Source: Bacteroidota bacterium
Lineage (GTDB): Bacteria > Bacteroidota > Bacteroidia > Bacteroidales > Prolixibacteraceae
Reading direction: 5' to 3'
DNA: 64,000 nt
NCBI GenBank assembly: GCA_030698405.1
Contig: JAUYMU010000068.1
Span: forward strand, 1 to 64,000
The position numbers were made by a program, and so were the translations under genes. The notes beneath the pieces are model-generated. The model saw only the letters and a program-made list of their open reading frames with translations, was not told the DNA's origin and did not search any database. Positions 3,981 to 49,705 of the stretch are shown piece by piece (within the stretch, counting starts at the first letter, position 1; each line of letters opens with the position of its first letter).

Positions 3981-4019
3981 TTTGGTACTCGTTAAAATGC
4001 AACTATCTGAAAATTAATT

Positions 4020-4205
4020 CAACCCCTATCAGGGTTGATATCTGGATTACTTCATTCTCCGTGGGTTATCACCCACGGTTATTCATATTTAATCCTTTCA
4101 GGATTTTTTACGCAGCGAAAGTCCTTCGGACTTTAATTTGAATAACCACCGGTAAAACCGGTGGTGGTATGGCATCTTGCCTCCTAGAACCCCGAAGCGG
4201 GTTCA
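4020..4205. repeat. REPIN-like bipartite hairpin element, copy 1
   Basis: Six hairpins in 186 bp. In order: CAACCC/GGGTTG (4020-4037), CCGTGGGT/ACCCACGG (4059-4078) followed by GGTTATTCAT, AATCCT/AGGATT (4091-4105), AAAGTCC/GGACTTT (4118-4134), then TTTGAATAACC (4137-4147) leading into ACCACCGGT/ACCGGTGGT (4145-4165), and GAACCC/GGGTTC (4187-4205). The two halves are inverted around the centre. Four further loci show the same plan with other stem sequences. Confidence 0.8.
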
Positions 4206-10769: not shown

Positions 10770-10968
10770 CCCCGGGTTTCGTTTCACTGCACCGTTCGGC
10801 AGAGCTCACGTCGAAGCCCGGGGTTATTGATATTCCACCCCTTCAGGGTGTAAAAATTAGTAACATTCAAATTTCATAACTACTAAATTTTTCAAATCGC
10901 TTGCTTTCCGTTGACCCGAAACGGGTCAAATATTAATAACCGCGGGTAAAGCGAAGCGGAACCCGTGG
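10770..10968. repeat. REPIN-like bipartite hairpin element, copy 2 (diverged)
   Basis: CCCCGGG/CCCGGGG arms span 10770-10823 and are followed by TTATTGATATT. Then come CACCC/GGGTG (10837-10850, arm edges approximate), TTGACCCG/CGGGTCAA (10911-10929), the linker TATTAATAACC and the CCGCGGGT/ACCCGTGG stem ending near 10968. The layout is the same as at 4.0, 19.5, 31.5 and 49.5 kb, with a weaker linker match. Confidence 0.6.
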
Positions 10969-11073
10969 TAAGGCAAATCAAATTGATCCAAGGCGCACTT
11001 AAAAAATTAGATTCGAAGCTTCCTTGCTGTATGCGCCGAATGAATCCTCTAATTTTAACAGAACTATCGCCGT

Positions 11074-19450: not shown

Positions 19451-19617
19451 AAGCCCAAAGGGCTTGAATTTGAATAACCTCCGGTGTAAACCGGAGGAAG
19501 AAAGTATCCTTAATTTAAGAACCCTGAAAGGGTTCAACCCTTATAGGGTTGTGTTTTTCTACCTCTTCTTTCCGTGCGTTTCACACACGGTTATTCAAAT
19601 TTTACCCCTTTCGGGGT
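19451..19617. repeat. REPIN-like bipartite hairpin element, copy 3
   Basis: AAGCCC/GGGCTT (19451-19465), TTTGAATAACC (19469-19479), CCTCCGGT/ACCGGAGG (19478-19497), GAACCCT/AGGGTTC (19519-19535), CAACCCT/AGGGTTG (19535-19551), CCGTGCGT/ACACACGG (19572-19590), GGTTATTCAAAT, then ACCCC/GGGGT (19604-19617). Halves are inverted relative to each other. Confidence 0.8.
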
Positions 19618-31388: not shown

Positions 31389-31494
31389 AATTTGTTCGTT
31401 TTAGTTTAAAAACACATTGACTGCATAAATCTAATTAAAATGTCAATCTGTTTTGAAATTTAAACATCGTGTATATTCCAAAAAGTTGATTATT

Positions 31495-31686
31495 TATCCC
31501 AAAGGGATAAAATTTGAATAACCGCCCCGAGAATCGGGGTGGAAAAGAAATGAAATGGAAATCTCAACCCTGAAAGGGTTGAACTTATATTGTGCAAATA
31601 TTCAACCCTTTCAGGGGTTGCTTGTTCAACTTTCATTCTTCCATGGGTTTCACCCATGGTTATTCAAATTCAGTCCTTTCAGGACT
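31495..31686. repeat. REPIN-like bipartite hairpin element, copy 4 (clearest copy)
   Basis: TATCCC/GGGATA (31495-31509), TTTGAATAACC (31513-31523), CCGCCCCGA/TCGGGGTGG (31522-31542), CAACCCT/AGGGTTG (31565-31581), CAACCC/GGGTTG (31603-31620), CCATGGGT/ACCCATGG (31641-31659), GGTTATTCAAAT, AGTCCT/AGGACT (31672-31686). The left half and right half are inverted versions of the same plan. It fills most of the 337 bp between the thrC end and the Gfo/Idh/MocA start. Confidence 0.85.
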
Positions 31687-31725
31687 ATCTTTCGACTTTT
31701 TAACTTCTCCGATTAGACTGGAAAA

Positions 31726-49371: not shown

Positions 49372-49464
49372 GAACTATTTGTTTAAAGGATAATATATTA
49401 TGCGAATTAAGAGTTAAAAACTGTATTAAAATGATTTTATTATTCTAATAATAAGCACTTTATT

Positions 49465-49646
49465 GAACCCACTTCGGGGTTCTTATTGTACTTTATTGTC
49501 TTACCCCGCACTTCGTACGGGGTTATTCAAATTAAACCACTTTCGTGGTTTCGAAGAGAAAATCCTGAAAGGATTTAATATGAATAACCGCGGGTGTAAA
49601 CCCGTGGTAAATAGAACGATGTGATTCGGAACCCCAAAGTGGTTTC
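49465..49646. repeat. REPIN-like bipartite hairpin element, copy 5
   Basis: GAACCC/GGGTTC (49465-49482), ACCCCG/CGGGGT (49503-49523), GGTTATTCAAATT, AAACCAC/GTGGTTT (49534-49551), AAATCCT/AGGATTT (49560-49576), TATGAATAACC, CCGCGGGT/ACCCGTGG (about 49588-49607), GAACC/GGTTTC (about 49629-49646). It fills most of the 334 bp between two sulfatase genes. Confidence 0.8.
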
Positions 49647-49705
49647 AATTAGAAACCGTATCTCAATCCTTAATTCGCATATATTAGTTGTAAATGTTTT
49701 AATGC

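Follow-up and report, generated by a model that had tools for sequence, protein, structure and literature searches.

The region around position 31495 holds two facing clusters of hairpins between genes, and the question it raises is what these structures are and what has spread them. The region lies within a stretch of 64,000 nucleotides (the window) at the start of contig JAUYMU010000068.1 of a Prolixibacteraceae genome. An earlier note, made from the sequence alone, had described one hairpin plan at five loci of this window and had likened it to REPINs or to an RNA or DNA structure under selection.

A three-hairpin unit recurs throughout the genome

The repeating unit is a half of ~89 nt. 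It consists of hairpin 1 (for example ATCCC-GAA-GGGAT), the linker TTTGAATAA, hairpin 2, which starts with CC (for example CCACCGGT-GAA-ACCGGTGG), a spacer of ~20 nt and hairpin 3 (for example CAACCCT-GAA-AGGGTTG). Between hairpins 1 and 2 a half reads AAATTTGAATAA, and the conserved pattern of the linker is xTGAATA[AG] before CC (TGAATARCC). We built a covariance model (R1) from a seed of 40 halves taken from this genome, using dispersed copies only. Searching the 5.49-Mb genome with it gave 116 halves at E ≤ 0.01, spread over about 60 loci; seed halves match the model by construction, but 116 is far above the 40 seeds. The five loci thus have many relatives, and the family that the earlier note had proposed extends genome-wide. 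Across the genome there are 51 occurrences of the exact linker TTTGAATAACC, compared with nine of the reversed control.

Neighbouring halves formed 32 convergent and 14 divergent pairs genome-wide, and 16 halves were singles, some of them cut by contig ends; copies at contig ends (C44, C75, C77, C101, C114) were not counted as true singles. Exactly 11 nt separated the halves in 24 of the 32 convergent pairs, one of which encloses a tnpA gene. Of 57 copies examined across the genome, only one fell within a mechanically called ORF of 110 aa or more. Rfam gave no match at its gathering thresholds. We found no prior description of these units in the open-access literature; one may exist elsewhere.

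Within the window, the recurring plan is real, with corrections, and its described parts were seen at all five loci. R1 detected ten halves there at E < 0.1, eight scoring 60–88 bits and the other two, both at 10770, scoring weakly (Table 1). The linker had been described at every locus. We found it exactly as TTTGAATAACC or its inverse at 4137+, 19469+, 31513+, 19589−, 31658−, and 49521−, that is, at the 4020, 19451, 31495, and 49465 loci, whereas the 10770 locus carries only the degenerate forms GGTTATTGATA and TATTAATAACC. Similarly, the AACCC/GGGTT hairpin is the outer one, as stated, in the divergent pairs at 4020, 10770, and 49465, whereas the halves converge at 19451 and 31495, with hairpin 1 outside and the AACCC hairpins inside. 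All five loci lie between same-strand ORFs and are therefore intergenic, as had been noted.

Table 1. Positions of the hairpin units and composite elements in the window (scores are for covariance model R1).
Positions	Strand	Feature	Score or remark
4015–4104	−	half of divergent pair	75.4 bits
4120–4209	+	half of divergent pair	67.5 bits
10762–10849	−	weak, degenerate half of divergent pair	21 bits, E 0.08
10914–11005	+	weak half of divergent pair	30.6 bits, E 0.0012
19452–19540	+	half of convergent pair, overlapping partner	81.6 bits
19530–19616	−	half of convergent pair	76 bits
31468–31722	.	whole composite, subfamily A1, ~255 bp: convergent three-hairpin halves, diverged outer inverted repeats	
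31496–31586	+	left three-hairpin half	87.5 bits, seed member
31493–31511	+	hairpin 1, left half, TTTATCCC-AAA-GGGATAAA	
31513–31523	+	linker TTTGAATAACC, left half	
31522–31542	+	hairpin 2, left half, CCGCCCCGA...TCGGGGTGG	arms covary
31564–31582	+	hairpin 3, left half, TCAACCCT-GAA-AGGGTTGA	
31598–31685	−	right three-hairpin half	84.8 bits, seed member
31601–31620	−	hairpin 3, right half	
31641–31659	−	hairpin 2, right half, + strand CCATGGGT-TTC-ACCCATGG	
31658–31668	−	linker, right half	
31672–31686	−	hairpin 1, right half	
49400–49680	.	subfamily B composite, 281 bp (L232), divergent pair inside	TIR ATGCGAATTAAG, 5-bp duplication ATATT
49460–49549	−	half of divergent pair	76.5 bits
49562–49651	+	half of divergent pair	60.4 bits

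Pairing is retained while stem sequences vary

The 31495 composite was aligned with 13 other copies of its subfamily. Its TIRs are diverged, with seven mismatches each, and no target duplication was detectable there. When folded as ssDNA, the element gave −58.8 kcal/mol (z = −10.2), and its two linkers paired together. In the congener G158, 30 bp stand in place of 31467–31724.

The earlier note had also claimed that the stems change together with their partner strands. Among 40 halves, we found 13 distinct hairpin-2 5′ arms. These paired with their own partner at 6.62 of 7 positions, compared with 4.52 of 7 when partners were swapped, and 0 of 2000 permutations reached the observed value. Hairpin-2 pairing is thus kept, and the stems covary beyond chance. 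As the copies are related, the covariation represents retained pairing and not 40 independent events. In a MAFFT alignment the register of hairpins 1 and 2 shifts, so that RNAalifold recovered hairpin 3 alone, and pairing was therefore tested by swapping arms. On the linker strand, the loop of most hairpins is the GNA triloop GAA. GNA triloops are unusually stable in DNA.

Y1/HUH transposase genes lie beside and between the units

The genome contains Y1 genes that match PF01797 over the cut-off, and two of them lie beside or inside the repeats (C33:15854-16297 and C80:3329-3772, 69% identical). On NF033573, for which the cut-off is 55, P0001 scored 57.4 bits and P0002 scored 51, below the cut-off. 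In sequence, the TnpA profile matched the structures of IS608 TnpA, ISDra2, and other related Y1 transposases, and the aligned 148-aa proteins have the motifs HxH, WQ, and Y---Q--HH. Subclass 1.2 was characterized by Y---Q--HH, WQ, a length of ~148 aa, and low copy number in Bacteroidetes and Cyanobacteria, and was reported to lack REPs and, in general, terminal structures (Quentin et al, 2018; PMC6006769). On its signature, rather than on a published profile, the enzyme is a putative member of “TnpA-Y1 subclass 1.2”.

The C80 locus is arranged as hp1-linker-hp2-hp3-[tnpA]-hp3′-hp2′-linker′-hp1′, so that the halves are inverted and read inward; R1 matched both ends of this gene (E 6.8e-7 and 5.2e-9). 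At C33, units flank the tnpA on a single side. Two gene-free pairs (L223 and L224) are 74–76% identical to the left end of C80 over 92–94 bp. No tnpB was seen in the tnpA loci inspected. The frame of the C80 tnpA (L033 1312-1854) does not stop before the hairpin 3 of its own unit but reads through it, giving 180 aa rather than 148. Another, more distant clade of tnpA (MANTYTQ..., with about 40% identity; L083, L084, L086–L088) has short flanking hairpins of a different, simpler design, for example GTCCCGTAGGGAC.

The linkage to tnpA extends across genera and phyla

We measured the linkage with a sequence-free descriptor that requires three ordered hairpins toward the gene, with a total stem of at least 19 bp, within 300 nt. 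The sample comprised 101 tnpA loci, this genome included, with 195 flanks. The descriptor held in 45.6% of the flanks, and more than half therefore fail it; among the controls, it held in 0.2% of dinucleotide-shuffled sequences, in 1.1% of stretches lying 1.2 kb off, and in 2.2% of the flanks that border other ORFs. In the opposite orientation, away from the gene, it was found in 20.5% of flanks, often from whole pairs nearby. Both sides qualified at 26 of the 101 loci, and hairpin 3 often lay 6–30 nt from tnpA in many genera and several phyla. Left and right linkers were more alike within a locus (identity 0.59) than between loci (0.48; 0 of 5000 permutations). The loops are strand-specific: Read toward tnpA, those of hairpins 1 and 3 were GAA in 79 cases and TTC in three.

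Convincing units were found at loci labelled Bacteroidota, Chlorobiota, Balneolaceae, Verrucomicrobia (among them the isolate Brevifollis gellanilyticus), Planctomycetes, and Cloacimonadota, most of the non-Bacteroidota loci coming from MAGs, where binning error is possible. At the order level, R1 matches occurred in 10 of 10 genomes that have a tnpA of ≥60% identity vs 8 of 36 others (Fisher, 1e-5), and in six other genera (G132, G145, G098, G090, G103, G089) the matches adjoin or sit near tnpA. All 22 congeners have the repeat, with 1 to 44 halves each; within the genus as a whole the number of halves per genome ranges from 1 to 102. In congeners with 89–92% identical tnpA, pairwise similarity is mostly limited to the gene and its repeats. 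Two genomes (G035 with 85 R1 matches and G158 with 41 halves) have no close tnpA of this type, which may reflect other movers or gene loss.

Part of the family lies inside TIR-bounded MITEs

Alignment of the flanks of the copies revealed longer, TIR-bounded elements in three subfamilies (A1, A2, and B). All have a near-fixed length, short target duplications and, as their interior, an inverted pair of Y1-associated units. A1 (~255 bp), which includes 31495, has the TIR TGAGTCCACTCCGAAAAGTC and a 4-bp target duplication, perfect in 7 of 13 copies (null 0.5%) and in all six copies in which both TIRs have at most four mismatches. B (281 bp), which includes 49465, has the TIR ATGCGAATTAAG and perfect 5-bp duplications in three copies. 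For A2, which has the TIR GGGTGTACKACAAAATTCC, 8-bp target duplications were found in degraded form only. In C114, the A2 TIR is also found at the ends of a 1118-bp IS with the duplication GATCGCTT and a 335-aa ISKra4-like ORF, which scores below the curated ISKra4 cut-off. A search for an autonomous partner with the A1 TIR found none.

The A1 TIR also bounds MITEs without three-hairpin units. The congener G152 has seven near-identical 112-bp MITEs of this kind (L413–L419), most with perfect 4-bp duplications; this family was probably recently active, and its transposase was not found. The same TIR occurs around unrelated palindromes of the CACCAAG, CATTGCGAGG, and TCATCCGATGAAT types, in some places on one side only (L376, L377, L379, L378, L383, L384, L412; contigs C43, C10, C23, C17, C103, and C118 of this genome and C156 of G152). 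Palindromes may thus repeatedly nest at the centre of an A1-TIR MITE. We abandoned the view that every copy is a Y1-derived MITE: The conserved flanks are TIRs, and these are present elsewhere without the hairpins.

As the A1, A2, and B units lie inside MITEs, the probable movers of these copies are DDE transposases, the Y1 units having travelled as passengers, and part of the family's dispersal was probably not the work of the Y1 enzyme. With the abundant subfamilies explained by DDE movement, the direct evidence for Y1-driven spread is the plain singles and the pairs without TIRs, both of which are present in the genome. The earlier note had called for comparison with related genomes. We searched for empty sites with the joined flanks of 16 copies from this genome against four congeners, taking two-sided matches, and several sites lacked the element in congeners; few clean ones were obtained for singles and TIR-less pairs. 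At several empty sites (31495, L243, L247), 30–60 bp of unrelated sequence were left. Absence at a congener site is by itself compatible with gain and with loss.

These observations also bear on an alternative that treats the units as no more than passengers or components of DDE MITEs or of other repeats between genes, beside which the Y1 gene inserted because hairpins are its targets. The TIRs and target duplications of A1, A2, and B fit such a history, as do the unrelated palindromes enclosed by the A1 TIR, and insertion of ISs into REPs is known, as for ISPpu9 (PMC8450116). However, it would not lead one to expect inward-facing units on both sides of tnpA, with hairpin 3 so close to the gene in many genera, nor left and right linkers matched within a locus, nor singles and pairs without TIRs. 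We consider this alternative unlikely.

A possible role in transcripts

Another possibility is that selection keeps the hairpins at gene ends as transcribed structures, such as terminators or mRNA-stabilising or regulatory RNA hairpins. The units are indeed intergenic and often 3′ of a gene, and in this genome 10 of 11 single halves (L242–L256), a small sample, are co-oriented with the flanking genes. This co-orientation could reflect transcription or replication-strand bias, and a transcript-level side role is thus possible. As the main explanation, however, selection on transcripts sits poorly with inverted pairs, in which both strands look alike, with absence of the element at orthologous sites, with the wide range of halves per genome within one genus, and with the lack of an Rfam match. 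We found no direct evidence for an RNA function and regard this explanation as very improbable.

Candidate ssDNA ends of a subclass 1.2 transposase

We favour the reading, to which we give a probability of about 0.68, that the units are REP-like recognition ends of a subclass 1.2 Y1/HUH transposase, and that the A1, A2, and B pairs lie additionally inside DDE MITEs. The Y1 enzyme would recognize the three-hairpin units, and presumably bind and cut them, as folded ssDNA ends. By analogy with IS608 and TnpA-REP (PMC8266576), the linker at the foot of hairpin 2 would probably be the guide or cleavage region. In the autonomous form, two units would face inward, one on each side of tnpA. The dispersed forms, in which the gene is missing and the units stand alone or as inverted pairs, would be non-autonomous Y1 products spread in trans. 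Some inverted pairs would have joined MITEs and multiplied there, if the order of nesting is as we infer.

A broader proposal, which we hold tentatively and at somewhat less than even odds, is that subclass 1.2 Y1 enzymes form a new REP-like system in Bacteroidota and several phyla, built on inward-facing pairs of three-hairpin units with the TGAATARCC linker and GNA triloops and mobile as ssDNA with or without the gene, whose units have come to lie in at least three unrelated MITE families. The units perhaps entered the MITE centres because hairpin apices are preferred as landing places.

A widespread Y1 group published as an orphan without recognizable ends or REPs now has candidate ends. 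Together with the guide-like linker and the gene-free repeats, these make the biochemistry of subclass 1.2 testable with short oligonucleotides. The Y1 units would account for a large class of the hairpins found between genes in Bacteroidota, and their nesting in three different MITE families offers a concrete case of one repeat common to two transposition systems.

Comparison with known systems

The likeness to REP/REPIN-RAYT systems (“REPtrons”) lies in the many extragenic hairpin units, present as singles and inverted pairs, and in a low-copy Y1/HUH gene in cis. The differences lie in the hairpin foot, where GT[AG]G is absent and hairpin 2 has the linker end ATA[AG]CC; in the unit, which has three hairpins with a TGAATARCC linker and not one hairpin; and in the enzyme, which belongs by its signature to class 1 (subclass 1.2, Y---Q--HH), whereas RAYT is class 2 (Y---NP). 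A REPIN/RAYT system of the canonical kind whose motif had drifted would share the extragenic singles, the inverted pairs, and the Y1 gene in cis, but is contradicted by the signature of the linked enzyme as well as by the foot and the number of hairpins, and is the least probable of the explanations weighed here. The units would work like a REP/RAYT system but fall outside it, on both foot and enzyme. The REPIN-like reading of the earlier note was therefore right in kind but incomplete: It is partly supported by the dispersed, intergenic, covarying singles and inverted pairs with a Y1/HUH gene in cis, whereas we found neither the GT[AG]G foot nor a RAYT-class protein. Moreover, since the 31495 element, like the other high-copy subfamilies, is enclosed in TIR-bounded MITEs, much of the spread need not have been REPIN-style.

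IS200/IS605 elements (IS608, ISDra2) have a TnpA of the same Y1 family and hairpin-bearing ends. Their hairpins, however, have the same orientation and there are no TIRs, whereas the ends described here are inverted, face the gene, and carry three hairpins each; the tnpA genes here are low in number and have diverged, and do not form sets of near-identical copies. The subclass 1.2 TnpA-Y1 proteins of the published survey (PMC6006769) agree in Y---Q--HH, WQ, the length of 148 aa, and the occurrence in Bacteroidetes; the survey gives no REPs and, as a rule, no terminal structures, whereas we found such structures here. Finally, A1, A2, and B share TIRs, near-fixed length, and short target duplications with DDE MITEs (ISKra4-type for A2), but differ from them in having as their interior an inverted pair of hairpin units associated with a Y1 gene.
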